From: a virus
IMG/VR virus record: IMGVR_UViG_3300009506_000073
Span: 1 to 42,589 of that record
Direction: 5' to 3' (one strand)
Length of the DNA stretch: 42,589 nucleotides
Program-made: the position numbers and the translations under genes
Notes under the pieces: model-generated
The model's input: only the letters and a program-made list of their open reading frames with translations
Databases searched by the model: none
What the model was told of the DNA's origin: nothing
Part shown: one piece after another, positions 1 through 42,589 of the stretch
Numbering within the stretch: the stretch's first letter is position 1
Layout of the letters: each line of letters starts with the position of its first letter

Positions 1-133
1 CATGGCAGTGCCAGCAGACATCCAGACCATGGCCGTGATCACTGGCCCAGTCCGACAAGGCGAGCAGAACCGACTTAGCGGTGATGTCACCCGTTGTCTG
101 GTCCCAGGCCCATTTCATGGCATTTACGCTCAT
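1..133 (-). CDS. Replication initiator, N-terminal fragment cut by window edge
   Basis: The first 44 codons of a protein beginning MSVNAMKWAWDQTTGD and continuing KSVLLALSDWASDHG. This resembles the opening of the phage winged-helix replication initiators (helix_turn_helix_36 type, lambda O-like role), which bind origin iterons and load the helicase. The start is fixed by an ATGA overlap with the stop of the upstream gene and by a GGAGG Shine-Dalgarno at 140-144. The frame is open to position 1, so the protein is truncated by the edge, not by a stop. The C-terminal part of a protein of this type lies at the opposite edge (41852-42589), and I infer the two are one gene. Confidence 0.6.
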   Translation of the reverse strand, partial: MSVNAMKWAWDQTTGDITAKSVLLALSDWASDHGHGLDVCWHCH

Positions 134-429
134 GACCGCCCTCCCATTTCGATAATGTCGAAGGCATTGGTCTGGATATCGTCGAATCGGTCTTCGCAAA
201 GGTTTTCTAGGCCGGTGCGCAGCATCTGCGACAAGTGCCAGATCTGCTGCTCGTCGATCTGGTCGTCCTCGCATCCATTCGCCAGAACTTCAGTCAGAGC
301 TTCGAGAGCCTTGGCGGTCGCCAGAAGGCCGCGAGCCATGGCTTCTGCATCGCCAGACGCCTTGATCAGCGCCTCATATTTTGGGCGAACGACTTCAAAA
401 TCAGCGGTTTTTTTGGAATTGAAGATCAT
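130..429 (-). CDS. Hypothetical protein, 99 aa
   Basis: Function not recognised. An acidic, mostly helical protein beginning MIFNSKKTADFEVVRPKYE. The ATG at 429 overlaps the upstream stop as ATGA, so I prefer it to the GTG 12 bases upstream. Its own stop overlaps the initiator start in the same way. It is therefore co-translated in a run of small genes directly ahead of the replication initiator, which suggests an accessory early role but not a specific one. Confidence 0.7.
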   Translation of the reverse strand: MIFNSKKTADFEVVRPKYEALIKASGDAEAMARGLLATAKALEALTEVLANGCEDDQIDEQQIWHLSQMLRTGLENLCEDRFDDIQTNAFDIIEMGGRS

Positions 430-749
430 GCGCGCCCCCACTGTGCATAGGTGGTGACGGTGAAGTCGGGGCCGATCATCGCGCCGGGCTCGGTGGTCAG
501 GATGGCGAAATCGAGCAGACCGATATTAAGCAGCAGGCCGCCCTTATAATTGGCGACCATCCGATTAACGAAAAGGTCGGAAACAATTTCGCAGGTATCG
601 TGCGCGCCAGTTTTTTCTTGCCACGCGGGCGTAAATGCGACTAGATAATCGGAAAGCCCGAGGCGCATAAATAGCGGGAAAAAACCCATCAATGCCGGGG
701 CTTTTTCATCGGCCTTGACAGGGGCCTGATCGGGATCTATATTAAGCAT
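426..749 (-). CDS. Hypothetical protein, 107 aa
   Basis: Function not recognised. Begins MLNIDPDQAPVKADEKAPAL; the middle is helical with a hydrophobic stretch (ALMGFFPLFMRLGLSDYLVA) and the C-terminal half looks like beta strands. The start overlaps the stop of the upstream 50-aa gene, and the stop overlaps the next start as ATGA. A weak AAAGG Shine-Dalgarno precedes the ATG. Same early minus-strand unit as the initiator. Confidence 0.7.
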   Translation of the reverse strand: MLNIDPDQAPVKADEKAPALMGFFPLFMRLGLSDYLVAFTPAWQEKTGAHDTCEIVSDLFVNRMVANYKGGLLLNIGLLDFAILTTEPGAMIGPDFTVTTYAQWGRA

Positions 750-894
750 TAGTAAATGCCTTTCTTGTGTGTGCGAAAGGTGTGGTTGTCTGAGCCATCA
801 ACGGCAAATTGAGCTGGTCCAGACGCAAACGGCCTGCGGCGGTCGAGATAGAAGCCGACAGTCTATCAGGGGTTGTTGAACGGTTGAGCTTCAT
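742..894 (-). CDS. Small hypothetical protein, 50 aa, first gene of the unit
   Basis: Begins MKLNRSTTPDRLSASISTAA. Two ATGs lie in tandem at 897 and 894 behind a perfect AGGAGG (899-904); the second gives the more usual spacing of four bases and is chosen. Longer in-frame starts upstream (to 945) lack a Shine-Dalgarno. It is the first gene after the strong promoter at 973-1002, with a leader of about 70 bases. It is basic and Ser/Thr-rich with no recognisable domain. Confidence 0.55.
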   Translation of the reverse strand: MKLNRSTTPDRLSASISTAAGRLRLDQLNLPLMAQTTTPFAHTRKAFTNA

Positions 895-972
895 CATTCC
901 TCCTGGTTGTATTCGAGATTTTGGAACTGAGATTGGGCGCGACACCTTGGCCGGATGGACGCGCCTTTCTCT

Positions 973-1002
973 ATTATAGGGACTGGTAGGGCCTCAAGTC
1001 AA
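973..1002 (-). promoter_or_regulatory. Sigma70-type promoter of the initiator unit
   Basis: On the minus strand, TTGACT (1002-997), an 18-base spacer, then a perfect TATAAT (978-973). It lies in the gap between the RusA gene and the small gene at 894, and points at that gene and the initiator. The -35 sits inside an imperfect dyad beginning GGGCTTGA and ending TGAGGCCC, which could be an operator. Predicted transcription start is near 966. Confidence 0.8.
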
Positions 1003-1063
1003 GCCCTGGTTCCAGAAATATTCTTGCGTATTTCATCGAAGATCTTTCCATTTATTGCGCGCT

Positions 1064-1561
1064 CTATTGCAGATGCACACGCTCTGGCGCGACATCCACC
1101 CCAAACTTCTTCTTGATCTGCTGCACCGCCCAGGCTTTCCCGCGCAGGTTTTTCGGCTTGTATTTGGGCTCTTCAGGCAAACTGTCTCCCTGCTTGATGA
1201 AGATGGCGATGCTGTCCGGCGAGCCTGAACCCCAGGCGACGCCGCATTTGCGGACAATCTTGCGGCTGTCGTCCATGATGATGCCAAGCTCGACCAGCAG
1301 ATCGAGGGTCGGCTTCGTCAGATTGTCGCCATCGCGGCGGCGGTTGTCGTCGGGATCGGTCGCCCGGATCTCGATCTCGACCGCACCGGCGAAGCGCGGC
1401 ATCTTGCCCTGCGCCAGGATGGCGTTCCCGGCCAGCTTGCGCCAGCGGGCCAGTTCCGGCGTGACATAGCGGCCCCGCCCGCGCTGACCCTTCTGGCGGT
1501 TCCCATAGGCCGCGTTCACCGATGGCGGACGCGGCACGATCAGGATTGTCTCGTCGGTCAT
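1064..1561 (-). CDS. rusA: RusA-family Holliday junction resolvase
   Basis: Structure-specific endonuclease that cuts four-way junctions during phage recombination and replication. The N-terminus has the family's PRPPSVNAAYG segment (residues 10-20). The active-site block is present: D77, D79, N80 and K83, with the second acidic cluster D97-D98 in LGIIMDDSRK. The body fits E. coli RusA (about 120 aa), but there is a basic C-terminal tail of roughly 45 residues that I do not recognise. The start at 1561 overlaps the stop of the upstream small membrane peptide as ATGA, so a start 24 bases upstream is rejected. RusA genes commonly sit in phage replication clusters, as here. Confidence 0.92.
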   Translation of the reverse strand: MTDETILIVPRPPSVNAAYGNRQKGQRGRGRYVTPELARWRKLAGNAILAQGKMPRFAGAVEIEIRATDPDDNRRRDGDNLTKPTLDLLVELGIIMDDSRKIVRKCGVAWGSGSPDSIAIFIKQGDSLPEEPKYKPKNLRGKAWAVQQIKKKFGVDVAPERVHLQ

Positions 1562-1671
1562 TGCGCGCCCCCTGGAAGCCACCACGTCACATTATAGGTC
1601 ACGGCCATGGTGACGGCGAGAAACGCCACCACCATCACCATGCCGATCACCTTGTCCTTTGTCGTGATCAT
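1558..1671 (-). CDS. Small single-span membrane peptide, 37 aa
   Basis: Begins MITTKDKVIGM, followed by a strongly hydrophobic segment of about 20 residues (8-28) and a short tail ending WWLPGGAQ. The start overlaps the stop of the 209-aa gene (TGATG) and its stop overlaps the rusA start (ATGA), so it fills the gap exactly and is translationally chained to both neighbours. The fit at both ends and the clear membrane segment are the evidence that it is real. Function unknown. Confidence 0.55.
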   Translation of the reverse strand: MITTKDKVIGMVMVVAFLAVTMAVTYNVTWWLPGGAQ

Positions 1672-2300
1672 CACGAATCCTCTTTTCCTGGCATCTCGAC
1701 GATGCGCGCTTTGAACTTGGTGGCCGTCTCGAAAGCGTTATGGCTTGCGCCCTCAAGCAGCTTGTCCATCAGGGCCGTGTCCTGGCCCGCATTGGTCAGC
1801 ATCACGACCATTTTGCCCAGCATCTCCGACAGCGTGGTCATCACCATGCCGGTCATGTCGGGGTCGTAGGCCGCAGACAGGCAGGTCTGTCCATTCACCT
1901 GCTTGGTGCCACGCTCCTGCATGAGGCGAAGCATCAGACGGGCCATTTCCTGATTGAACCAGTGGGTTTCGTCGTAAACGATCTTGCGCTCTGACATCTT
2001 CACCGTGGTGCCATCCGGCCCGACTGCAAACCAGTTTTCGGGGTCAGCGAGGAACTGCCCGGCCTTCGAGGTGTCGGCGGCGCTTTCGAACATGAAGTTG
2101 TTTGCGCCGTCGAGAAACATGCTCATGACCTGAGCATTGCCACCGCATTGCAGGGCAATGAACTTGCCAAGCTGACCAGCCATCGAGGCGCAGATCTCGC
2201 CAGTTGTGCCAGAAGGTAAGCCGCTTTCGATCGTCTCGCCCTTGGTTTCCTCAAGGATCAGTCGGATCAGTTTTCTTTCGAAGCGTGACAGGTTGCTCAT
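1671..2300 (-). CDS. Hypothetical replication-module protein, 209 aa
   Basis: Function not recognised. Begins MSNLSRFERKLIRLILEETK and appears largely alpha-helical, with Met-rich segments between about residues 120 and 185. No Walker motif, zinc cluster or nuclease motif is visible. The start overlaps the helicase stop as TAATG, so it is co-translated with the DnaB-type helicase and probably has a replication role; a helicase loader or accessory factor is possible but nothing in the sequence proves it. Confidence 0.8.
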   Translation of the reverse strand: MSNLSRFERKLIRLILEETKGETIESGLPSGTTGEICASMAGQLGKFIALQCGGNAQVMSMFLDGANNFMFESAADTSKAGQFLADPENWFAVGPDGTTVKMSERKIVYDETHWFNQEMARLMLRLMQERGTKQVNGQTCLSAAYDPDMTGMVMTTLSEMLGKMVVMLTNAGQDTALMDKLLEGASHNAFETATKFKARIVEMPGKEDS

Positions 2301-3757
2301 TAGCGTGTTCCGAAATTTGGTGCTGTGGTGCTGAACTTCATGGCCGGTCCATCGAAATGAAGATTACAAATTCCCCGAGGGCCGGATCTATTGAAGTGAA
2401 CGATGACCTCTGCTTTCCCCCGGAATTTTGTCATGGCGGCCTGCCAGTCCACGGTCTTGTCGATGTCGCCCGGATCAGGCTTCAGCGCGTCGATATAGAC
2501 CTCTGGCCGGTTCAGGAAGATCACCGCGTCGCCGTCCTGCTCGATCTGGCCGCTGTCGCGAAGGTCGCCGTCATTCGGGCGCGTCATCTCGGCGCGGATC
2601 TTCGAGAAGTCGGTGACGGAAGAGCGATCCACCATCTTGCGGTTAAGCTGCGCCAGGGCGACGATCGGCACATTCAGCGTCTTGCGCATGGCGGCGAGAC
2701 CCTGCGAGACTTCAGTGATCTGCTCATATCGACCACGGCCCGGCCCCTTGATGCACTGCATGTAGTCGACGAAGATGGCGACGCAGTTATCGACGCTCAC
2801 CGCATGCCGTGCACGCAAGGCGATGGCCTCGATGGTCAGGCCACCGGCATCATCAATATGCCATGGCCACCGATCGACCGTCTCGGCGGCATCCTCGATG
2901 CGAAGCTCTTCATCCTCGTTGTATTCTCCCCGGCTCATGCGCGTGTAATCGACATCGGCTTCGAGGGCGATCATCCGCTGAATGACTTCATCCTTCGGCA
3001 TTTCCAGCGAGAAGAATTTGATGGTCTGTCCGACCTTGAGCATGTTTCGCATGATGCAGAGCCCGAGCGCCGTCTTACCTTGCTTCGGGCGCGCGCCGAT
3101 GACATAGAGCTTCGACTTGCCTATGCCGTCGATCATGTAATCGAGCTGCGGAAAGCCGGTCGAAAGTCCGCTGATGCCACCGCCTGCCGCCTTGCGGGCG
3201 CGCAGCTTTTCCATGACAATGCCGATGCGGGCCGACACATGGCAGGCCGTGTCCGGCGCATCATTCCCCGAGATCGCGGTCAGATCCTGGCTCATTTTGT
3301 CGACCAGTCCCTCGGCCCCGGTCTTGGCGAGCCCATCATATTGGGCGCACATCACCCGGATACGCCGCCCGACCGCCGCGTTCTTCACCGCATCGACAAA
3401 GGCGGCGACATCGGCAGCCTTGCGGGCGTTGAATTTGAGCTTGTCGAGATAGTTGGCGGTCGTCATGTCCGCCATGGGGGCGGTCTCGGTCAGCTCGGAC
3501 ATGATGCTGGCCGGTTCGGCGCGCTTACCGCGTGCGATCAGTCTGCCTGAAGCCGTGAAGATCTGCCGGTGAAGACCGTCGTGGAAATCCTCGGCGCTGA
3601 TCCGGTCGGCATATTCCTCATAGACACGGTTGTCGGCGAGGATGGACGCCAAGACAATGCGCTCGGCCTCGGCATTGATCGGGCCTTCATCCGGCTGTGC
3701 GTCCGGCTTCTTGCCTTTGGGCTTGCGTGCGCCTTGCTTCTGCTGATAGTCTGACAT
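2300..3757 (-). CDS. dnaB: DnaB-type replicative DNA helicase
   Basis: Hexameric ATP-driven helicase that unwinds the fork ahead of the host polymerase. The N-terminal DnaB domain covers about residues 27-135 (AERIVLASILADNRVYEEYA). The RecA-like C-terminal domain has Walker A GARPKQGKT (221-229), FFSLEMPKDEV after it, Walker B VAIFVDYMQ (336-344), and the family signature RPNDGDLRDSGQIEQDGDAV near 403-422. At 485 aa it matches the usual DnaB length, with a short charged N-terminal extension. An AGAAGG Shine-Dalgarno lies 10 bases before the ATG. It is the second gene behind the ribbon-helix-helix regulator, separated by a strong hairpin. Confidence 0.95.
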   Translation of the reverse strand: MSDYQQKQGARKPKGKKPDAQPDEGPINAEAERIVLASILADNRVYEEYADRISAEDFHDGLHRQIFTASGRLIARGKRAEPASIMSELTETAPMADMTTANYLDKLKFNARKAADVAAFVDAVKNAAVGRRIRVMCAQYDGLAKTGAEGLVDKMSQDLTAISGNDAPDTACHVSARIGIVMEKLRARKAAGGGISGLSTGFPQLDYMIDGIGKSKLYVIGARPKQGKTALGLCIMRNMLKVGQTIKFFSLEMPKDEVIQRMIALEADVDYTRMSRGEYNEDEELRIEDAAETVDRWPWHIDDAGGLTIEAIALRARHAVSVDNCVAIFVDYMQCIKGPGRGRYEQITEVSQGLAAMRKTLNVPIVALAQLNRKMVDRSSVTDFSKIRAEMTRPNDGDLRDSGQIEQDGDAVIFLNRPEVYIDALKPDPGDIDKTVDWQAAMTKFRGKAEVIVHFNRSGPRGICNLHFDGPAMKFSTTAPNFGTR

Positions 3758-3776
3758 TGCTGAATACCTTCTGTTG

Positions 3777-3808
3777 AATGGGCTGGCCGTTCGCGCGGCT
3801 GGCCCATT
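3777..3808 (-). promoter_or_regulatory. Stable 12-bp hairpin between regulator and helicase genes
   Basis: Arms 3777-3788 and 3797-3808 pair over 12 positions (two of them wobble) around an eight-base loop. There is no T-run on either strand, so it is not a standard terminator. It lies just upstream of the helicase Shine-Dalgarno and after the regulator stop, and could act as an attenuator, an RNA-processing site or a protector of the downstream message. Confidence 0.5.
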
Positions 3809-3811
3809 TGC

Positions 3812-4018
3812 TTATGCGAAAACTTTCGCCATCTCCCCCAGATCACCGTCGCTCGTCGGCATGGCGTCGTCCACCGATGCCTTCAGCATGTCCAGGATGA
3901 GCTGATGCAGTGACGTGTTCCGAATCGCGGCAAGAATACGAAGACGCTTGCGCAGGTCATCTGGCAGACGCAGGGTTGTGGCGTGAATGACTTCGGCTGA
4001 AGTTTTTTCGCTGTTCAT
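3812..4018 (-). CDS. Ribbon-helix-helix (Arc/CopG-like) transcriptional regulator
   Basis: A 68-aa protein with the Arc/CopG pattern: a beta strand (HATTLRLPDDL, about 12-22), then two helices (RKRLRILAAIRN and SLHQLILDMLKASV). Such proteins dimerise and put the strand into the major groove of operator DNA. It is the first gene of the leftward replication operon and lies directly beside the paired promoters at 4032-4083, so autoregulation and control of the opposite promoter are likely by position. AAGAGG precedes the ATG by about 10 bases. No other repressor is visible in the window. Confidence 0.85.
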   Translation of the reverse strand: MNSEKTSAEVIHATTLRLPDDLRKRLRILAAIRNTSLHQLILDMLKASVDDAMPTSDGDLGEMAKVFA

Positions 4019-4031
4019 GGCTTTTTGCCTC

Positions 4032-4060
4032 TTGACAGGTTGATATCACCGCTCTATATA
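4032..4060 (+). promoter_or_regulatory. Rightward sigma70 promoter, shares its -10
   Basis: TTGACA (4032-4037), a 17-base spacer, then TATATA (4055-4060): a perfect -35, ideal spacing and a good -10. It points at the accessory block beginning at 4112. The -10 is the same six bases used by the opposing promoter on the other strand. A partial dyad around GATATC lies in the spacer and could be an operator. Confidence 0.85.
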
Positions 4061-4083
4061 GGGCTGTGACGCTATGGTGTCAA
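4055..4083 (-). promoter_or_regulatory. Leftward sigma70 promoter, shares its -10
   Basis: On the minus strand, TTGACA (4083-4078), a 17-base spacer, then TATATA (4060-4055). It drives the regulator and helicase operon leftward. Because TATATA is its own reverse complement, this promoter and the rightward one use the same -10 and cannot be bound by polymerase at the same time. Confidence 0.85.
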
Positions 4084-4111
4084 GGGGAAATCTGCATGAA
4101 GGCGAAAAAAA

Positions 4112-5398
4112 ATGTTCAACATCAGAAGGCAGAAAGGGAAGGATAAGGCACTCGATCCGGGCGCTGGCGGGAGCTATGGCGAAACAGGTCTGCAACAGGG
4201 GTCTGCAGACCCTGCAGGGGGGTCTGTTCAGAACGAGAACTGGCTGGTGCGGATCGTGGCCTACGGCATCAGCCTTGCAGCAGGGGTCTGCATCAATGTC
4301 GAGGCAGTCCTGCACACCCATGACATGGGTCTGCTGATCCTGGCGGTGGGGTCTGTTTTCTTCTGCGCGCTCGGCCTCGATCAGGCATACAAAGCCATGA
4401 TTTCAAAGAGTTTTGGCCGTGCAGCACTGGCAACGATCCTTATGCTGGCCTGCCTGCCGCTGAATGCTTACAATGCCTTCACCTTGAAAAGCGAGACCAT
4501 GGCCCTGCAGGGCCAGAACAGAGCTGCCGCAGGGGTGCAGCAGACCACCCTGCAGACCGAGATCGCCACCCTGCAGACCCTGCGCGAGGCCCCTGCAGCC
4601 CTGTCGGCTGGCAAGTCGGTCGGCATGGTCGAAGCCGAGATCAAGGGTCTAAAATTTGACAAGATTTATGCACGGTCTGGAAGTTGTGAAAACATCACTG
4701 TGCAATCGTCGCGAGAGTTCTGCGATGGTCTGGCCAAAGCCGAGCAGCAACTTGCGGCTGCAAAGCGTGTCGATAGCCTCGACCAGAAGTTGAGCAATCT
4801 TCGCGCGAAACTGAGGGAAGCCACAACCAGTGTCGCCATCGAGAACCCCGGTGCGGTCCGCTTCGCCCAGCTTTCGGGCATGGATGTCGAGAGCGCCGCG
4901 CTGATGCAGATCATCTTCACCGTCCTGGCGCAGCTCGGCATCGAGGTGATCGGGCCGCTGATCCTGCTGCTGACCTTCTGCACGGTCGGCGGCGCAGTGG
5001 TCGCCCAGAAGCGACGCAGCCGTGAGCCTGAAGTCGCTGATCCGCAGCCAGACCCGGTGGTCGAGGAACAAGCCGCCGTAGAGCCCCCTGCAGCCGAGCC
5101 GCAGATCTGCGAGCCCGTGAACAGGATCGCACCGGAAGAGCTGCCGAAGGCCGAAGATGGCCTTGTGGCGGACTTCGTGGCGGCGCGCATGGTGAAGGCG
5201 CAGGGCCAGAACGTGCCGACGACAGAGGTGCATCAGGCGTATTGCCAGCACTGCAAGACCGCAGGGGTCGAGCCCCTGCATATCACCCAATTCGTGCCGC
5301 AGATTATTGCGCTCGGATTCCCGAAAGAACGTGTCGGGAAAATGTGCTTCGTCAACGCGAAGCTTCTGCCGCCAGTCCGTCTGGCGGTTTCTCAATAG
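4112..5398 (+). CDS. Four-helix membrane protein with cytoplasmic C-terminal domain, 428 aa
   Basis: Family not recognised. Predicted membrane segments lie at about 44-64, 71-90, 103-122 and 266-298. Between the third and fourth is a loop of about 140 residues with coiled-coil character and a possible disulfide pair (C192, C204). After the last segment come basic residues (QKRRSR), an acidic Pro-rich linker (305-345), then a compact C-terminal domain (350-415, with HQAYCQHCKTAG and FPKERVGKM) resembling the small winged-helix domain at the end of some phage primases; that likeness is by eye. The start at 4112 follows an eight-A run. It is the first gene of the rightward unit, and its first 500 bases hold an unusual DNA repeat cluster. 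Confidence 0.85.
   Translation: MFNIRRQKGKDKALDPGAGGSYGETGLQQGSADPAGGSVQNENWLVRIVAYGISLAAGVCINVEAVLHTHDMGLLILAVGSVFFCALGLDQAYKAMISKSFGRAALATILMLACLPLNAYNAFTLKSETMALQGQNRAAAGVQQTTLQTEIATLQTLREAPAALSAGKSVGMVEAEIKGLKFDKIYARSGSCENITVQSSREFCDGLAKAEQQLAAAKRVDSLDQKLSNLRAKLREATTSVAIENPGAVRFAQLSGMDVESAALMQIIFTVLAQLGIEVIGPLILLLTFCTVGGAVVAQKRRSREPEVADPQPDPVVEEQAAVEPPAAEPQICEPVNRIAPEELPKAEDGLVADFVAARMVKAQGQNVPTTEVHQAYCQHCKTAGVEPLHITQFVPQIIALGFPKERVGKMCFVNAKLLPPVRLAVSQ
4199..4580. repeat. Cluster of GGGTCTG / CTGCAG palindromic repeats
   Basis: Exact GGGTCTG occurs on the plus strand at 4199, 4220, 4284, 4327 and 4349, and on the minus strand at 4206-4212 and 4574-4580. Perfect palindromes overlap them: GGGTCTGCAGACCC (4199-4212), CCCTGCAGGG (4210-4219) and GGCCCTGCAGGGCC (4501-4514). 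CAGGGGT recurs at 4196, 4281, 4530 and 5262, the last inside a 7-bp stem hairpin (5261-5279). The copies fall in all three codon frames of the membrane-protein gene, so the conservation is at the DNA level. Confidence 0.75.
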
Positions 5399-5412
5399 AA
5401 GGTAATCAGCAA

Positions 5413-5799
5413 ATGCAGACCGAAATCCAGACTACGACTGAAGCCCCTGCCGGTCAAGGCAATGGGGGCCGCGAGCCTACCCGCAAGCAGATCGCTCAGA
5501 TCCGCCGCCCGAAATACGCGAAATTCCGGCGCGAGCAGTTCACCGATTGGGACCAGTTTGCGGCGGTGAATGAGGATGCTGCCGACGCTGAGGAATACGC
5601 TTACGAAAGGGGCGTCGGCGACGAGAGACTGAATATTTACAAGGCGATGGTCGATCAGGCCGATTACTGGCATCGGGCGTCCATGAACCACCATAGCGCC
5701 CATTTGAACGGGCAGGTGACCCCATATGAGGATTATTACCAGCGTTATAAGGCGTTCTCGGACGCGGCGCGGATGATCCTTGAGAGGGGGATGAGATGA
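5413..5799 (+). CDS. Hypothetical soluble protein, 128 aa
   Basis: Function not recognised. Begins MQTEIQTTTEAPAG, then a charged helical body rich in Tyr and Asp (EDAADAEEYAYERGVGDE). The ATG at 5413 is chosen because AGAAGG lies 11 bases upstream; the frame is open further upstream but overlaps the end of the membrane-protein gene. The initiation region AGAAGGTAATCAGCAA resembles that before the helicase gene. The stop overlaps the next start as ATGA. Confidence 0.75.
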   Translation: MQTEIQTTTEAPAGQGNGGREPTRKQIAQIRRPKYAKFRREQFTDWDQFAAVNEDAADAEEYAYERGVGDERLNIYKAMVDQADYWHRASMNHHSAHLNGQVTPYEDYYQRYKAFSDAARMILERGMR

Positions 5800-5972
5800 A
5801 GGCCGATTATTGGTGCAATGGGTTCGTGATCGGCACTGCGTTCGGGCTGTCGCTTCCATATGGCGGCCCGATCCCGATCATCCTTCTGAACCCTTGGCTG
5901 ATCCCGTTGGGGCTGGCACTGGTCGCGGTAATCCTCTGGATCGACCTGATCTTCAAATCCATGAACAGGTGA
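5796..5972 (+). CDS. Small membrane protein, 58 aa
   Basis: Begins MKADYWCNGFVIG. Residues 8-32 and about 33-54 are hydrophobic (LIPLGLALVAVILWIDLIF in the second), so one or two membrane passes are expected. The start overlaps the preceding stop as ATGA. Function unknown; its place in a run of small membrane proteins on the accessory strand suggests an envelope or anti-host role, which is inference. Confidence 0.65.
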   Translation: MKADYWCNGFVIGTAFGLSLPYGGPIPIILLNPWLIPLGLALVAVILWIDLIFKSMNR

Positions 5973-5975
5973 AAA

Positions 5976-6152
5976 ATGGAACTGAATATTAAGCATCTCG
6001 GCTTCTTCATGCTGCTCATCGTGGTCGCCGATGTCGGTCTTCGCCTTAATGGCGTGTGGTGGACTGGCATCCCGTCCATGGTGGCGCTCGGCGCGATTGC
6101 GTCCTTGTTCGCCTTCACCGGCGAAGGCTCTATAAAGGGGAAGATCCTATGA
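5976..6152 (+). CDS. Small two-span membrane protein, 58 aa
   Basis: Begins MELNIKHLGFFMLLIVVADV. Two hydrophobic segments (about 8-24 and 30-48) are joined by a short loop with paired tryptophans, a hairpin topology. It starts three bases after the preceding stop, and its own stop overlaps the next start as ATGA. Function unknown. It could be holin-like by size, but it is far from the endolysin and on the opposite strand. Confidence 0.65.
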   Translation: MELNIKHLGFFMLLIVVADVGLRLNGVWWTGIPSMVALGAIASLFAFTGEGSIKGKIL

Positions 6153-6451
6153 AACAGAATTGCGGAAATTGCAGCGCATGGCATAAGAGTGGCGAAGATT
6201 CGGGGGATTGTCGCGCTGTGCCCCCGACGCCGATCTTGATCGGCATGCAACAGGTGCCGATTCCGGGGAATGCGATCATGATGCCGGGCAACGGCAAAAA
6301 CATGACCACGGTGCCGATCGTGCATTCGTTCTTCCCGAGCATGAAGGCATTCGGCTGGTGCCGGTGCTGGCAACCGGCGAGCGAATCAGGGGTCGGCGAA
6401 GAGATATGCGCCGCGCCAGAAGGTGGCCTCATTGCCACAGATGCGGCGTAA
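6149..6451 (+). CDS. Cys-rich, probably metal-binding protein, 100 aa
   Basis: Begins MKQNCGNCSAWHKSGEDSGD. Cysteines at 5, 8 and 21, then a C71-x-C73 pair in a WCRCW motif, suggest a zinc-ribbon-like site holding the two ends together. The ATGA overlap with the preceding gene fixes the start at 6149. Short Cys-rich proteins of this style occur among phage early accessory genes, but I do not recognise the family. Confidence 0.75.
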   Translation: MKQNCGNCSAWHKSGEDSGDCRAVPPTPILIGMQQVPIPGNAIMMPGNGKNMTTVPIVHSFFPSMKAFGWCRCWQPASESGVGEEICAAPEGGLIATDAA

Positions 6452-6459
6452 AGTGAAGC

Positions 6460-6495
6460 GCCACGGCTTGCGTCACCGCTCGCCGTGGCTATCAT
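6460..6495 (+). promoter_or_regulatory. Hairpin and possible weak promoter before the collagen-like gene
   Basis: GCCACGG (6460-6466) pairs with CCGTGGC (6483-6489), a perfect 7-bp stem with a 16-base loop and no T-run. A weak sigma70-like pair overlaps it: TTGCGT (6468-6473), 16 bases, TATCAT (6490-6495). Either could set separate expression of the downstream secreted protein. Evidence for the promoter is weak. Confidence 0.35.
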
Positions 6496-6529
6496 CAGCA
6501 ACTTCATCAGCAGCTAAATGGAAATGCAA

Positions 6530-7168
6530 ATGAAGACTATCACGAAAACAGCTCTGACCGCAATCGTCCTTATGGGCGTGTCGGCACCTGCTTATGCTAT
6601 TAATTGCAATGATGTGAAGACCTCGCCGGTCACTTGCGGCGATCTTGTCACCGGCGCGGTCGATACCGACGAAATTGCCGATGGCGCTGTCACCGAAGAT
6701 AAGCTTTCGCCTGATGTGCAGGCCAAGCTGAATACGCCCGGCCCTGCTGGCGCGGACGGAAAAGACGGCAAAGATGGTGCAGATGGCAAGGACGGGAAAG
6801 ATGGCGTCGATGGGAAGGACGGCGCTCAGGGCCTGAAAGGCGACAAGGGCGACAAAGGTCTGAAGGGGGACAAAGGGGACAAGGGCGATCAGGGTGTCGC
6901 CGGGAAGGACGGGATCGACGGCAAAGACTTCGATCCGGCTGATCTGGAAAAGGGCCTTGCCACGACCGCAGCCCTGACCGTGCCGCATATCGATCCTGGC
7001 AAAAAGTTCGGCATCGCGGTGTCACCGGCCTTCTTCAATGAGGAAGCGGCCATCGGCGTCGGCGTTGGCCTTCGTCTCGATGACACATGGCAGCTCGGCG
7101 GATCGGTCGCCACGGACTTCGACGGCAAGAACGTGGCTGGAAAGGGTGTACTGACCGGCCAGTGGTAA
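6530..7168 (+). CDS. Secreted collagen-like protein with YadA-like outer-membrane anchor
   Basis: The ATG at 6530 gives a clean Sec signal peptide (MKTITK, hydrophobic core, cut after AYA at residue 23) and has GGAA seven bases upstream; two in-frame ATGs lie just before it. A Cys pair (26, 36) and a short helical stalk (residues 40-68) precede 21 unbroken Gly-X-Y triplets (71-133), many of them GKD or GDK, as in bacterial collagen-like trimers. The last 70 residues look like the four-strand anchor of YadA-type trimeric autotransporters, with glycine-alternating strands and a terminal Trp (GVLTGQW). Expected role: a trimer displayed on the host outer membrane, affecting adhesion, phage exclusion or aggregation. 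It is the last gene of the rightward block and behaves like a moron gene. Confidence 0.8.
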   Translation: MKTITKTALTAIVLMGVSAPAYAINCNDVKTSPVTCGDLVTGAVDTDEIADGAVTEDKLSPDVQAKLNTPGPAGADGKDGKDGADGKDGKDGVDGKDGAQGLKGDKGDKGLKGDKGDKGDQGVAGKDGIDGKDFDPADLEKGLATTAALTVPHIDPGKKFGIAVSPAFFNEEAAIGVGVGLRLDDTWQLGGSVATDFDGKNVAGKGVLTGQW

Positions 7169-7192
7169 CCCTTGAGAAATTAAAGAGTTTGG

Positions 7193-7219
7193 GGGCGGTC
7201 CAGGTGGCCGCCCTTTTTT
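7193..7219 (+). terminator. Rho-independent terminator of the accessory block
   Basis: GGGCGG (7193-7198) pairs with CCGCCC (7208-7213) and is followed at once by six T (7214-7219). The pairing can extend by two GC pairs past a one-base bulge. It ends the rightward unit and overlaps the stop codon of the convergent lysis gene. On the minus strand only a weak T-rich stretch follows, so termination there is less certain. Confidence 0.9.
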
Positions 7220-7715
7220 ACGATCCAGCTTTTCCGGTCAGGGCGACTTTCGTCTGCCAGCTTCTGGTGAATTCGCCGCTGTCGAGCCGCTCAGTGACGA
7301 CGCGCAGCCGCTCTTTGGTGATAATCAGCTCTTCTCGCATATTGTCGATCAGGGTCGACTTTTCTTTCACAGTTTCCCGGATCACGGTCTGGCGCTCGCC
7401 CAGCGTCGTAAAAGGGCCGTTCATCACAGAGGTGATGATCCATATCCCGAGACCGGCCAGGACCGCGCCAGCCGTCACGATGCTGGACGTGGTGCGCACA
7501 ACCTCATTGAGGCCCGGCCCCCTACCAGCAGCCAGGGTTTCGATCTTCTTGTCGAGCCCTTGGAACATGCCGACCAGCGAGCGCACATCCTGCGTCAGGC
7601 TGCCGATGTCTTTTTCTGTTTTCCGAGCATGATCTTCGAGGGAAGACAGCCGGACATTGAAGCCGTCCATGGTCTGTGCCTTCTGTTCGGCGGAATTTGG
7701 CGATATGTTCGTCAT
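7218..7715 (-). CDS. Single-span membrane protein with coiled coils, XhlA/holin-like
   Basis: 165 aa. A predicted coiled coil (about 15-65) precedes one membrane segment (75-98, GAVLAGLGIWIITSV), followed by another long charged helix (105-148). This layout recalls haemolysin XhlA-type phage lysis proteins, but the family match is by architecture only. It is the last gene of the leftward lysis cassette and the only holin candidate beside the endolysin. The ATG at 7715 is chosen over a TTG at 7769 that lacks a Shine-Dalgarno. Confidence 0.6.
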   Translation of the reverse strand: MTNISPNSAEQKAQTMDGFNVRLSSLEDHARKTEKDIGSLTQDVRSLVGMFQGLDKKIETLAAGRGPGLNEVVRTTSSIVTAGAVLAGLGIWIITSVMNGPFTTLGERQTVIRETVKEKSTLIDNMREELIITKERLRVVTERLDSGEFTRSWQTKVALTGKAGS

Positions 7716-7791
7716 GCCAGCGATGCAGCCTTTATCTGCGCCAATGGTGCGGGTCGGTGTGGCGCGCAATCGCCGCCCGGCCCGGTCTCAG

Positions 7792-8016
7792 TCATTTTTC
7801 CGCCTTGGCCTTACGCTCAGCCGCTATGACAGCCGAATGGCTGCGGTTATGGCGCTTGATCTGCCGGATGGTGTCGGGGTCGTCGTTCTGAGAAAAGGTG
7901 ATGTATCGGTAAGGTGCAGATGACGGCACGCTGATCAGCCGTTCCTGAACTTCGGGCGGTGTGGTATTGCACCCGGCCAGGGCGAGCGCCGCCAGGGCGA
8001 TGATGGCGATCTTCAT
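7792..8016 (-). CDS. Outer-membrane lipoprotein, o-spanin (Rz1-like)
   Basis: A 74-aa protein with a lipoprotein signal peptide: MKIAIIALAALALAGC, lipobox LAGC with acylated C16, then TTPPEVQ. Its ATG overlaps the stop of the upstream i-spanin candidate as ATGA. Two-component spanins of this kind connect inner and outer membranes and fuse them at the last step of Gram-negative lysis. The mature part is longer and more charged than lambda Rz1, so the assignment rests on signal, position and pairing. Confidence 0.75.
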   Translation of the reverse strand: MKIAIIALAALALAGCNTTPPEVQERLISVPSSAPYRYITFSQNDDPDTIRQIKRHNRSHSAVIAAERKAKAEK

Positions 8017-8339
8017 TTCTTGCCATCCCGGCAGAACTTGCTGCCCTTGCAGAGTTGCGCCGCTGTCTTGTCGGTCTCGTCTGGCTCATCCGCTGCGATC
8101 TTGGCCAGCAAGTCGCTCAGCGCCCGCGACGATGCGGCCTCATTCTCGGCGATCCGGGTGTCGCAGGCCGCGCGCTCGGCCACGGTCGCCGCCTTGACCT
8201 CGCCTCGCATGTGCATCCAGACGCCACCGGCAGGCAGGCCGATCACCAGCAGGGCTGCCACGCCATAGAACAGGGCAGGCGACAGGCCCGGCATCGCCCA
8301 GCCCAGCGCCTTCCACGCGATCGATCCGATGGTCAGCAT
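8013..8339 (-). CDS. Inner-membrane i-spanin (Rz-like)
   Basis: 108 aa. One membrane segment (about 22-42, ALFYGVAALLVIGLPAGG) is followed by a periplasmic helix with coiled-coil character (48-85) and a Cys-containing basic tail (LCKGSKFC). This is the layout of Rz-type i-spanins. It starts one base after the endolysin stop and ends overlapping the lipoprotein start, the standard endolysin-Rz-Rz1 order. A class II holin is the main alternative. Confidence 0.7.
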   Translation of the reverse strand: MLTIGSIAWKALGWAMPGLSPALFYGVAALLVIGLPAGGVWMHMRGEVKAATVAERAACDTRIAENEAASSRALSDLLAKIAADEPDETDKTAAQLCKGSKFCRDGKK

Positions 8340-8340
8340 G

Positions 8341-9105
8341 TCAGCGCCCCTTCGATTTCAGATCATCGAATCGAGCCCAGACGATCACGCAGAGCACCAC
8401 GATCTGCAGCATATAGGCCGCGATCTGGAAGGACGGGATCGAGACGCCCATTTCCTTGAAGATCGCGCTGATGCCCATGAGCTGCGTCTGGCTGTCCAGC
8501 ACGACCGCGCCACCAACACCGGCGAGCGCCATCGAGGCCGTGGTCGCCCGCACGGTACGGCTGTTCGTGGCCGTCACCGGCGTGCGGTAGCCGAGCAGGC
8601 GGGCCTTGTCCTGATGCGCGATGCTGACCTTGTTGCCCTGGTTTCCGCCCAGAACGAGAATGCCCTGCGCGTCCTCGCCCATGTAGAAACCGACATGGCC
8701 CTGTGTTCCACGGGGATCACCGCGCGAGAAGACGGCGATGTCACCGAGCTTCGGCTTCGCGACCACCTTGCCCCATTGCAGATAGGATCTAGCCATGAGG
8801 GACTTCGAGCAGGGCACACCGGCCCGTTCCAGCATGGCCCCGGTGAATCCGGCGCACCACGCGGTTTCGTCGTCGTTCACCTCAGGATGACCGGCATCCG
8901 CATAATAGCGGAGCACGCGCGGATTGTGTTCCGGGCCAGGGATTTCCTTCACCCCAAGCTCGCCGCGCGCGAGCTGAAGCCACTTCGGTTCGCCTGAAAC
9001 CGGCACTTCATCCGGCAGGTCTGGCGCGCGCCGCTGCGGCTTGCCCATCAGCCATAAAAAAAGCGCCTCGATGGCGCTCGTGATGCTCTGAATAAACGCC
9101 TTCAT
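8341..9105 (-). CDS. Endolysin, NlpC/P60-type (TIGR02594-like), membrane-associated
   Basis: 254 aa. The domain at about 40-175 has the TIGR02594 signature: LGVKEIPGPEHNPRVLRYY, then the catalytic Cys in DDETAWCAGF (C84), His in GTQGHVGF (H137) and the GGNQGN turn (153-158). These enzymes cut peptidoglycan peptide or amide bonds. The N-terminus has a short hydrophobic segment and the C-terminus one or two (about 185-200 and 225-243), unusual for a freely soluble endolysin and suggesting membrane tethering. Spanin candidates follow immediately. Confidence 0.85.
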   Translation of the reverse strand: MKAFIQSITSAIEALFLWLMGKPQRRAPDLPDEVPVSGEPKWLQLARGELGVKEIPGPEHNPRVLRYYADAGHPEVNDDETAWCAGFTGAMLERAGVPCSKSLMARSYLQWGKVVAKPKLGDIAVFSRGDPRGTQGHVGFYMGEDAQGILVLGGNQGNKVSIAHQDKARLLGYRTPVTATNSRTVRATTASMALAGVGGAVVLDSQTQLMGISAIFKEMGVSIPSFQIAAYMLQIVVLCVIVWARFDDLKSKGR

Positions 9106-9115
9106 GGTTCCCCCC

Positions 9116-9472
9116 CTATCGAGACATCAAAGCCCTCAGTTCGTCGGCGGAAATGCCCAGCGCCTCGATCTTTTTCAGGGCGCTCTGCTTCAGTGCGGCC
9201 TTCGCCTCTTTCGCCTCGGCCTTCTGCTTCTCGCGGTCGGTCAGCTCAGGCAAACGCCATTGCTTTGTTGCGGAATTCCAGATGTGACGATGCGATGGCG
9301 GGCGCTTGTCGACCTCGATGGCGTCCTTCGGTGGGCTCATGCCGCCCGGCAAAGGATTGCCATTGTCATCGAGAAAATATTCACCATAAAATTCGCCGGT
9401 CGGTGAGACGAAAAGTCGGCCCTTGGCAGACGCTTCTGCCTGTCCGCTCATGCGAGAGATCATCTTGCTCAT
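9116..9472 (-). CDS. Tail-fibre-associated protein, possible fibre chaperone, 118 aa
   Basis: Begins MSKMISRMSGQAEASAK. A beta-type N-terminal half (FVSPTGEFYGEYFLDDNG, later HIWNSATKQWRLPEL) is followed by a charged C-terminal helix (residues about 78-118). The ATG at 9472 overlaps the fibre stop as TAATG. Small two-part proteins directly after a fibre gene are often fibre assembly proteins; that is the likely role here, by position and shape rather than by a clear family match. Confidence 0.65.
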   Translation of the reverse strand: MSKMISRMSGQAEASAKGRLFVSPTGEFYGEYFLDDNGNPLPGGMSPPKDAIEVDKRPPSHRHIWNSATKQWRLPELTDREKQKAEAKEAKAALKQSALKKIEALGISADELRALMSR

Positions 9473-10443
9473 TAGGAAGCCTTCAATCCATAGAGGTCGA
9501 ATTGACCAGAAATTGTTCCGGTCGCGGCCAGGAAGCGAATGCCATCGATAGCATTGGTATTCAAACGAAGCTTTCCCCAACCATTGAAGACGGACGGCGA
9601 TCCAAAGCAGTATCCGATCGCACCGCATTGAAAAAGGACGCTAACATATGCGCCGTTGGCCAGAGGTCGGTTGAACTCTGCGACAATATATGCGCCTTCA
9701 CTAGATCCGTTTCCAATCGCAAAGCTGGTCTCTATTTCATCGTCGAATGTATCGAACGAATGATCGACTGCACCTTCGTATCCGTAATTATAGCCCCATG
9801 AATAGTTTGTAGCACCAGAAAGAAATGACGAAGACTGACTGAACCTCATCTGCAAAATAGCGTTATCAGTATTGAATGTGATTTGGCCTGACCTTACCTG
9901 AAATGCAGAATAACCTGCTGGAAGAGAAAAGTCGACGTTAGAAGCCCCTGATGCCGTGACGCTGCCGATATATTCCCAGGCGATTCCAAGGGTCTCGCGC
10001 GCCGTCGCAGCGTCATCGTCATCGACCAGAGTTTTACCGAAGTCCGAGATCGTGAAGGTCTGGTTCGTGGCATCTCGCGGGCCGTTTGTGGCGTCTGTGA
10101 TGATCACCGCGCGGCTGCTCTGCGTTACCGTAACCGGCGTGCCGACGCCGTTTCCGAATGTCACAGCAAAATCGCCGCTGGTCAGGTTTTCGACGACCGT
10201 CAAGCCTTGGCAAGCGGTCGTGACCAACACATCAGCGGTTAGCGTGCCTGTCAAACGCAGGATCAGATACTGACTTTCCTCTGCTGTCAGCGTGACATTC
10301 GAAGAGCTGAGCGACTTGGTGACTATGCCGCCCAGATTACGGTCGCCAATGGCGAACGTGTTCTGATTCAGCTCATCGCCCCAGGTGTCCGTCTCGGTGC
10401 CGGTCGTCGGAACGGACCAGCCCTTATATGTAGTTGTCGGCAT
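9472..10443 (-). CDS. Tail fibre / receptor-binding protein, 323 aa
   Basis: The N-terminus GWSVPTTGTETDTWGDELNQ is the short virion-attachment motif of many podovirus fibres. A beta-rich shaft follows (about 40-140), then a collar-like ATARETLGIAWEY (about 145-157) and a C-terminal beta domain (160-323), the probable receptor-binding head. It lies between the ejection proteins and the lysis cassette, downstream of all neck genes. The window has a second fibre (25024-26820), so the virion may carry two adhesin types. Confidence 0.8.
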   Translation of the reverse strand: MPTTTYKGWSVPTTGTETDTWGDELNQNTFAIGDRNLGGIVTKSLSSSNVTLTAEESQYLILRLTGTLTADVLVTTACQGLTVVENLTSGDFAVTFGNGVGTPVTVTQSSRAVIITDATNGPRDATNQTFTISDFGKTLVDDDDAATARETLGIAWEYIGSVTASGASNVDFSLPAGYSAFQVRSGQITFNTDNAILQMRFSQSSSFLSGATNYSWGYNYGYEGAVDHSFDTFDDEIETSFAIGNGSSEGAYIVAEFNRPLANGAYVSVLFQCGAIGYCFGSPSVFNGWGKLRLNTNAIDGIRFLAATGTISGQFDLYGLKAS

Positions 10444-40894: not shown

Positions 40895-41852
40895 GATAGG
40901 CCCTTTCTTCGAGTTTTGGAAGTTCGTCATTCTTGGCTTTGCTCAGGCCATTGCTGATCGATTTCATCACGTCCTTTTCGCCATTGTCGTCGATCAGACC
41001 GTTCGTCTCGCAAGCTGTCTTCAGGCCGGTGATGACATCTTCGAGGCTTAGGATCTCTTGACCGTCGATCCGATTGTGAACATACCGCCCAAGGGTGCAG
41101 GCGGCGCGGAAGAGCTGTTCGCCCCGAGACCCACGCCCGGCGCGTTCCAGCTTTTCGATCTCGGCGTCATAGGCTCGATCAGCCCAAGCCCGATAGCGCT
41201 TCAAATTGCGCTCGCCGGACAGGGCGTCACGATCAGCCGTCTCGAATTTCACGTCAGACGCCTTGCTCTTATAAGCAAACGGCTCGATCAGCCGCTCGAC
41301 CTCATCGATCATGGCCTGCGTGATCACCGGCAGGTCATGCGGCCTGCAGGTTTCCAGATCACCGTTGTGCCAGCGATATGGCCGCCCGGTGTCTTTGTGG
41401 ATGGTCGGGGGGATCACCGTCTGGCGGCCCTTGACCAGTATCTCGACCAGCGTGCCGCCGATCGTTCCGTCCTCATTCGCGGCGCGGAAATTACGATTGG
41501 AGATCAGCCCGGTCGGATCGTAGAAGAACGCGGTCGCGCCGCGCCGCCCGACCTTTGCCGGGGCCTTGATGTGACCAAACACCTGCTTCACCGCGCCATA
41601 GACACGCGGATCGTCGACATCGATCGCCACCATTCCGCCGTAACCGCAGGCCAGGATGATGCCGAGCCCATCGCATGACCGTCCCCAGCTCTTGATCTGC
41701 CAGTCGTCAGCGGGCGATTCGCAATAGACCGACCAGCCGGTCAGTTTGTATTTGCCGCCGAAGCTTGGCACCTTCGAGCCGGGGTTCACGGGAAGCGGCG
41801 AGAAACCGCGCGCCTTGTAATCCATTGCCCACTTGATAAAAGGTCCGGTCAT
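40887..41852 (-). CDS. Prim-pol primase/polymerase (bifunctional, N-terminal type), 321 aa
   Basis: Archaeo-eukaryotic-type primase (PF09250-like prim-pol). It makes primers and can extend them. Early block FIKWAMDYKARGFSPLPVNP (5-24), the metal-binding acidic motif in VAIDVDD (75-81), VGRRGATAFFYD (101-112) where a His is more usual, and the third motif VEILVKGRQTVIPPTIHKDT with YRWHNG (about 136-164). The C-terminal 150 residues are helical and lack a helicase, which is encoded separately as DnaB. The start at 41852 overlaps the initiator stop (TGATG); an ORF start 96 bases upstream is rejected. No other primase is seen. Confidence 0.85.
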   Translation of the reverse strand: MTGPFIKWAMDYKARGFSPLPVNPGSKVPSFGGKYKLTGWSVYCESPADDWQIKSWGRSCDGLGIILACGYGGMVAIDVDDPRVYGAVKQVFGHIKAPAKVGRRGATAFFYDPTGLISNRNFRAANEDGTIGGTLVEILVKGRQTVIPPTIHKDTGRPYRWHNGDLETCRPHDLPVITQAMIDEVERLIEPFAYKSKASDVKFETADRDALSGERNLKRYRAWADRAYDAEIEKLERAGRGSRGEQLFRAACTLGRYVHNRIDGQEILSLEDVITGLKTACETNGLIDDNGEKDVMKSISNGLSKAKNDELPKLEERAYHG

Positions 41853-42589
41853 CACGCAAACGCCTCTTGCTGTCCGAAGTTGGCTTCCTGAAATGCCCTG
41901 GCAGCATCGCGCAGCATCTGCGGGACGTTCAGCCAGGACGGCCACCATTTGCGGGCATATTGCAGTTCCTCGCGGTGCCCTTCCTGCAGATCGAGCGCCA
42001 GGGCCTTAATCTGCTGCTCGCGCTCTTCGCTAGCGTCGGGTGCATAGCATTCCCAACGCCGATCCGTGAGCCAGCCCTGCATATGCTTGACGTGGCGCTC
42101 TTCGGTGCCGTCCTTCTGGATCTGCGCCTTGTAAGCTAGGACGCCGACATGAATGGCGTCGACCTCATCTTCACAGCCCTGCCGAACCCAGGATTTGAAT
42201 GCAGCCGCCTTGCTCATCCGGTTTTTGCACGGAAACACCTGCCAACACCGTTCGAAGCCTTCCGTATATTTCGGCGCGCCCGACTTCTTCGGCTTCGCCT
42301 TCGGTTTGCCTGAAGGTTGCTCTTCTTCCCTGCCCTTCTCAGGCTCACCTCTTCCTGCCGCTTTTGACGACACACTCTCGTCGGAACTTGCTTCCGACAT
42401 AGGTTCTACATTTGAGGTTCTATCTTTTAGGTTCGACGTACTCTGCGTACGGGGGGTAACGCACTCTGCGTCCACCCCCCCCTGTACTTTAAGTCCGTTA
42501 CCCTCCCCCTGTACTTTGCGTCCGGTAAGCTCCTTCCGGCTGATCAGGGGTTGGTTGGCAGGGCGATCGGTGCAGATGAAAATGCGGTC
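41852..42589 (-). CDS. Replication initiator, C-terminal fragment open to the window edge
   Basis: The frame is open from the right edge without a stop (246 codons with stop), so the GTG at 42475 need not be the true start. The edge part (RIFICTDRPANQPLISRKEL) reads like the end of a winged-helix domain. A low-complexity linker follows, encoded by the iteron array, then a helical C-terminal domain with ERCWQVFPCKNRMSKAAAFK and MQGWLTDRRWECY, as in phage replisome organisers and DnaT-like proteins that recruit helicase. It is coupled to the prim-pol gene. The N-terminal 44 residues of a protein of this type occur at the left edge. Confidence 0.75.
   Translation of the reverse strand, partial: DRIFICTDRPANQPLISRKELTGRKVQGEGNGLKVQGGVDAECVTPRTQSTSNLKDRTSNVEPMSEASSDESVSSKAAGRGEPEKGREEEQPSGKPKAKPKKSGAPKYTEGFERCWQVFPCKNRMSKAAAFKSWVRQGCEDEVDAIHVGVLAYKAQIQKDGTEERHVKHMQGWLTDRRWECYAPDASEEREQQIKALALDLQEGHREELQYARKWWPSWLNVPQMLRDAARAFQEANFGQQEAFA
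42401..42523 (-). other. Candidate replication origin: iterons inside the initiator gene
   Basis: Four iterons on the minus strand start at 42523, 42496, 42473 and 42450 (spacing 27, 23, 23): GGACGCAAAGTAC, GGACTTAAAGTAC, GGACGCAGAGTGC, GTACGCAGAGTAC. G- or C-runs follow the first three. Next comes an A+T-richer stretch with three AGGTTC[TG]A copies (plus strand 42401, 42415, 42429) at an exact 14-base period. Lambda has the same layout: four iterons and an AT-rich part inside gene O. Confidence 0.65.

Follow-up and report, generated by a model that had tools for sequence, protein, structure and literature searches.

A symmetric, putative two-way promoter with a common palindromic −10 hexamer between divergent genes of a phage contig

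Introduction

Bidirectional promoters with a symmetric −10 element were reportedly described in bacteria by Warman, Grainger and colleagues (Nat Microbiol 2021). In the sections of PMC10268837 drawn on here, bidirectional promoters are defined by divergent transcription starts lying 7–25 bases apart, and a spacing of 18 bases is given as the commonest because −7T and −11A then pair reciprocally. The corresponding sections of a further paper (Warman et al. 2026, PMC12825309) state that opposite orientations of the polymerase exclude each other sterically. There, five basal E. coli bidirectional promoters were too weak to compete appreciably, the cases tested showed, with one exception, repression of one direction when the opposite one was strengthened, and competition alone changed expression and noise, not commitment.

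The promoters of alphaproteobacteria offer a second comparison. The sigma-70 consensus of Sinorhizobium meliloti is given as CTTGAC-N17-CTATAT in the portion of PMC2873474 used here, and the portion used of PMC8407463 reports that −7T is missing from more than 60% of the sigma-70 promoters of the four alphaproteobacteria it covers, with CarD proposed to help or compensate for the missing base. In searches of the open-licence literature no paper was found on a palindromic TATATA common to two consensus −35 boxes, nor on bidirectional promoters in alphaproteobacterial phages. Here we describe such an element in a virus contig of 42,589 bases, the whole of which was analysed and is referred to below as the window.

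Results

An earlier note on this DNA had pointed to two opposed promoters meeting on one palindromic −10 hexamer, with perfect −35 boxes and 17-base spacers on both sides, and direct reading together with a pattern search reproduced this arrangement exactly: TTGACA (4032–4037), a 17-base spacer (4038–4054), TATATA (4055–4060), a second 17-base spacer (4061–4077) and TGTCAA (4078–4083). With one extra base per box the element reads CTTGAC-N17-CTATATAG-N17-GTCAAG. The features of this region are as follows.

4031–4084, no strand: candidate symmetric bidirectional promoter CTTGACA-N-CTATATAG-N-TGTCAAG, from symmetry and pattern scans
4032–4037, plus strand: −35 box of the rightward promoter, TTGACA, from direct reading and pattern
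4055–4060, no strand: common palindromic −10 TATATA, within CTATATAG (4054–4061), in its presumed register
4078–4083, minus strand: −35 box of the leftward promoter, TTGACA on that strand, from direct reading and pattern
4048, minus strand: predicted leftward start, with a 30-base leader, placed from the −10 position
4067, plus strand: predicted rightward start, 45 bases before ATG 4112, placed from the −10 position
4046–4069, no strand: 24-base palindrome TCACCGCTCTATATAGGGCTGTGA centred on the −10, a candidate operator with putative binding

The pattern TTGACA-17-TATATA-17-TGTCAA occurs once in the window, was matched in none of 100 dinucleotide shuffles and has an expected count of 6.5e-8 from base composition; shuffles and expectation together rule out a chance origin. 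The symmetry extends over the 54 bases of the element, with 18 of 27 pairs symmetric, a score that no other 54-base stretch of the window reaches. The element is placed in a 93-base gap (4019–4111) between two divergent ORFs, of 68 aa on the minus strand and 428 aa on the plus strand, and Shine-Dalgarno-like AAGAGG and AAGGGG sequences adjoin its boxes. Within the rightward leader (4082–4114), an ATG at 4096 follows AAGGGG at a distance of eight bases and starts a 16-codon ORF, which runs in another frame into the beginning of the 428-aa ORF. ATG 4112 itself stands at the end of a stretch of eight A. RNA structure in this leader was considered and dropped (z = 0.46).

Like the promoters of Warman, Grainger and colleagues (as described in the sections of the two papers used here), the phage element has −10 elements that overlap on opposite strands, TATATA at 4055–4060 reading the same both ways, and its predicted divergent starts lie few bases apart. 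The commonest form described there has starts 18 bases apart and paired −7T and −11A, for which we derive a 7-base TANNNTA; the phage element differs in its 6-base TATATA, in predicted starts 19 bases apart (computed from the −10 position), in A at −7 and in the consensus sequence of both −35 boxes. TATATA places A at −7 on both strands and the reciprocal pairing of the 18-base form is absent, with no TANNNTA in CTCTATATAGGG; since the hexamer is palindromic, A at −11 together with T at −7 is impossible in both directions. The kind of promoter is thus already known, and the geometry without −7T and with 19 bases is a variant of it.

The missing −7T also bears on the promoter class. A scan of positions 1–10000 for E. 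coli-style promoters listed neither promoter of the pair, because it demands T at the sixth −10 position, where TATATA has A. They are therefore not plain consensus promoters of the E. coli type, as had been supposed, and with −7A both ways the promoter should be weak for a polymerase of that type. When TATAT was also accepted, nine promoter-like sites were found in the whole window. Four of these have C before both boxes and at least five matches per box, namely the pair itself and the sites at +715 and −1002, while a fifth (+618) has C before both boxes and weaker boxes. The sequence CTTGAC-N17-CTATAT is present on both strands (4031–4059 and 4084–4056), this consensus being that of Sinorhizobium. 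The absence of −7T fits the alphaproteobacteria, as most of their promoters lack it. Compared with these promoters, as far as the portions used of PMC2873474 and PMC8407463 describe them, the element has the same boxes and 17-base spacer, here on both strands; they are described as one-way, whereas the phage element has two on one −10. Terminase and portal relatives include phages of Roseobacter, Paracoccus, Erythrobacter, Rhizobium, Caulobacter and Pelagibacter, at no more than 51% identity, and the terminase matches also include phages of Aeromonas and Shewanella. Judged from these relatives and from the style of the promoter, the host is probably an alphaproteobacterium; because the relatives are distant and mixed, this class is a fair guess rather than a result.

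The genes on either side of the element were assigned as follows.

3812–4018, minus strand: first leftward gene, 68-aa Arc/ribbon-helix-helix-like regulator (phrog_582, E = 1.4e-4; Pfam below cut-offs)
2300–3757, minus strand: DnaB-like replicative helicase (PHROG, E = 1.2e-80; Pfam DnaB_C, E = 1.4e-63)
1064–1585, minus strand: RusA-like Holliday junction resolvase (PHROG, E = 3.4e-22; Pfam)
4112–5398, plus strand: first rightward gene, 428 aa, with no confident family (ORF call, PHROG and Pfam profiles, searches for relatives)
5413–7168, plus strand: remaining rightward block, encoding proteins of 128, 58, 58 and about 101 aa and a 216-aa collagen/YadA-anchor protein (ORFs, profiles)

The element is thus the junction between the leftward genes and a plus-strand block (4112–7168) that gave few family matches to PHROG and Pfam profiles, the collagen/YadA-anchor protein being its last gene. 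The proposed division into replication genes on the left and accessory genes on the right stands, given the helicase (DnaB-like) and the resolvase (RusA-like) to the left and, to the right, a block mostly lacking assigned families. The first leftward gene had been read as a ribbon-helix-helix regulator, and here the outcome was mixed: weak profile matches retain the Arc/ribbon-helix-helix-like assignment (19.9 bits against Pfam RHH_10, cut-off 27), but the fold search returned no such match. The single-sequence model of the 68-aa protein has helices at residues 20–31 and 36–52 with a mean pLDDT of 71, and the search with it gave no PDB match at E ≤ 0.001.

At the far end of the contig, on the strand of the leftward genes, matches were found to a replication initiator, primase, terminase, portal and structural proteins. 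An ORF at 41852–42475 on the minus strand matches replication initiation proteins, and at its start lies a near-palindrome (42452–42505; GGGTAACG...CGTTACCC) with 16 of 27 pairs, possibly an origin feature. A frame at the left end (1–130) looks by eye like the N-terminal part of a replication initiator, while the initiator match falls in the opposite terminal region (41852–42589). With initiator-like sequence at both ends, the genome may be circular or permuted, its junction being imperfect.

A DNA-binding-like regulator as first leftward gene, next to a promoter whose orientations exclude each other at each event, could point to a bistable switch resembling that between lysis and lysogeny, in which leftward or rightward transcription would commit the phage to different programmes. 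This is very improbable in our judgement: none of the 46 distinct ORFs of the window, from a contig that may be incomplete, matched an integrase or non-Arc repressor family in PHROGs, the rightward block has no known regulator, and competition alone alters expression and noise rather than commitment in the sections used of PMC12825309. The lysogeny switch was dropped, with no integrase among the 46 ORFs scanned.

The palindrome TCACCGCTCTATATAGGGCTGTGA is the only ungapped 24-base palindrome in the window with at least 10 of 12 pairs. Next to the −10, 7 of 9 spacer bases (P = 0.0024 against random pairs) and 6 of 8 flanking pairs (P = 0.005) are symmetric, both P values having been computed after the symmetry was seen. 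It is plausible that this palindrome is an operator shutting both directions, and a dimeric regulator bound to it, perhaps the 68-aa protein, would block both. Carried further, the symmetry might exist mainly as an operator, with 4046–4069 binding a ribbon-helix-helix-like or other dimeric repressor and the promoter overlap secondary. That the core is the sole palindrome of its quality in the window, that its symmetry beside the −10 is above that of random pairs and that the spacers of the elements in other phages look unsymmetric by eye would all agree with this; yet the −10 and −35 boxes themselves make up much of the symmetry, the full motif has no second copy in the window, no relative was found that would show conservation, and the P values followed the observation. 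We regard an operator as the main reason for the symmetry as possible, although not the expected explanation.

The near relatives of this phage were sought at several levels. Among phage records there was no near DNA match for bases 1–25000 and no distant DNA match for the 93-base gap, and the 428-aa protein had no relative in viral contigs or phages. The DnaB-like protein has distant homologues only, and the 68-aa protein a single weak relative, whose gene in L002 neighbours one for a TnpB-like protein instead of DnaB. The portal alignment kept 80 loci, the best at 45–56% identity. In the records of 43 loci (42 of the 80 portal loci plus the record of L002), the DnaB of the window was found in one record, at 29% identity; among 35 of these records the ribbon-helix-helix-like protein was found in one, L002's own, and the motif with up to three mismatches in three, against one for a backwards control. 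Two of these three matches have no TATATA-like centre by eye. None of the DNA, protein, portal and motif searches brought up a close relative of the phage. In L002 (900–3120), the TnpB-like gene (1499–2875, minus strand) and the small ribbon-helix-helix gene are accompanied by divergent promoter-like sites and repeated GACACCA motifs, and adjoining repeats resemble a CRISPR array by eye.

The same form was encountered in an unrelated family of environmental phages. In L004, L008 and L106–L110, TTGAC-18-TATATA-18-GTCAA likewise lies between a leftward helicase gene and a rightward gene (phrog_2378); this region differs from the window in that the helicase is of phrog_62 and not DnaB, the −35 box is often TTGACG and no ribbon-helix-helix gene was noted beside it. 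The helicases of L106–L110 are 73–74% identical, and both boxes and the common −10 are kept with differing spacers, an agreement due partly to selection because these contigs were found by the pattern itself. The next relatives, L111 and L112 (66%), do not keep the element, and upstream of the other 73 loci, out of 80 in that search, the sequence is different.

In the viral collection, TTGAC-18-TATATA-18-GTCAA was found at 14 loci and the reversed control, with the same letters and the −35 boxes turned inward, at 8. The canonical 7-base form TTGAC-18-TATNATA-18-GTCAA is commoner than either, with at least 120 loci. Gene contexts were taken from script-called ORFs, not curated genes, and shift slightly with the settings, as seen for Brachyspira. 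With the window excluded, 14 other TATATA loci formed 8 clusters, 3 divergent, 2 co-oriented and 3 coding, whereas all 6 clusters of the reversed control are coding. Of 1000 random positions drawn from the TATNATA loci, 867 were coding and 15 divergent. Against these rates, the divergent excess among the TATATA clusters (3/8) has P = 1.8e-4, or 0.0045 when the homologous clusters of L004 and L008 are merged, and the non-coding excess (5/8) has P = 0.0016. The 120 listed TATNATA loci formed 43 clusters (23 coding, 9 divergent, 10 co-oriented and 1 at a contig end), and by the same comparison their divergent excess has P = 1.4e-8 among the matches listed. Phages repeatedly put such elements between divergent genes. 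Many of the TATNATA matches are nevertheless chance or one-way, as 43 of the 120 listed belong to one family, co-oriented in the 80 loci first classed, and 23 of the 43 clusters are coding. In this widespread phage family (L292 and relatives), the symmetric element TTGACCTCATC...TATATCATATA...GGTCAA is kept and is flanked by two co-oriented genes, one for about 170 aa and the other for about 430 aa, with no divergent gene called.

Both −35 boxes are a perfect TTGACA in 4 of the 14 TATATA loci and in 8 of the 120 listed TATNATA loci. The phage element belongs to this minority, but such counts do not support the earlier view of it as an unusually clean case; it appears to be a slightly unusual, clean example of an already known kind of two-way promoter.

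The frequency of co-oriented contexts (10 of 43 TATNATA clusters among the matches listed and 2 of 9 TATATA clusters, the window included) also bears on whether both directions are used. Palindromic −10s yield reverse promoters for free, and one direction could be real with the opposite TTGACA-17-TATATA a by-product of a near-palindromic −10 and chance or drift, giving a weak transcript or none. A by-product, however, needs no second perfect −35 box at exactly 17 bases; genes begin on both sides at normal predicted leader lengths (30 and 45 bases), and in the stretches separating the element from its neighbouring genes, left and right, the TATAT-accepting scan found no further promoter-like site. 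A promoter working in one direction only is therefore unlikely.

In cellular genomes, covering 84,980 species, the perfect form was found at 99 loci, 89 of them copies of one dispersed Brachyspira repeat. The 10 others comprise 6 coding, 2 contig-end and 2 co-oriented contexts and none that is divergent, and on these grounds cellular examples of the perfect element were dropped. The Brachyspira repeat (89 of the loci L187–L285) has the form TTGACAAA...GTATATAC...TTTGTCAA, and its two arm types combine in several ways. When 94 perfect copies were classed by context, only 3 lay between divergent genes, against 28 co-oriented and 15 convergent copies, 20 in coding sequence and 28 at record ends, a distribution more like that of a repeat family or a dispersed site than of a gene-to-gene promoter. 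A literature search gave no matching description of it.

Discussion

Taken together, the stretch 4031–4084 is likely to be a bidirectional sigma-70 promoter of a phage, the host of which is probably an alphaproteobacterium, giving two competing early transcripts. Weighing against this reading are A at −7 both ways, the distant protein similarity behind the host class, the weak ribbon-helix-helix assignment, the absence of the element from L111, L112 and the other 73 loci of that search, and the lack of divergent contexts among the 10 non-Brachyspira cellular loci.

From the layout of the boxes, host RNA polymerase would load in either orientation on the common CTATATAG, guided by a consensus −35 box 17 bases away on each side, with rightward transcripts expected to start near 4067 and leftward ones near 4048. 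The leftward transcript would carry the ribbon-helix-helix-like regulator and the replication genes, and the rightward one the accessory block. As the two polymerase positions would overlap almost completely, loading should be exclusive at any moment, and the claim that orientations exclude each other at each binding event agrees with what the sections used of PMC12825309 state for such promoters. To call the element a choice element goes too far, as exclusion per event differs from choice, and the five basal promoters of that paper, in the same sections, competed little until one direction was strengthened. Here both sides are near consensus, so that competition between two early transcripts is likely and no committed choice is implied. 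The ribbon-helix-helix-like protein may feed back on the element, for which TCACCGCTCTATATAGGGCTGTGA would be the best operator candidate; if a repressor binds there, it would shut both directions at once.

A broader proposal is that alphaproteobacterial phages use a separate bidirectional geometry, with a fully palindromic CTATATAG, two consensus −35 boxes, a host polymerase that, with CarD, would do without −7T, and an operator built into the common −10 through which a single repressor would close both directions. We offer it as speculative and rather doubtful.

If active, the element would be a compact natural test of the strength of competition between opposed polymerases at two near-consensus promoters, the five E. 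coli promoters studied in PMC12825309 having been weak. It would further test whether a fully symmetric −10, poorly usable in other bacteria, becomes possible in alphaproteobacteria through the lost need for −7T, and it could be used as a small two-way part in work with alphaproteobacteria.
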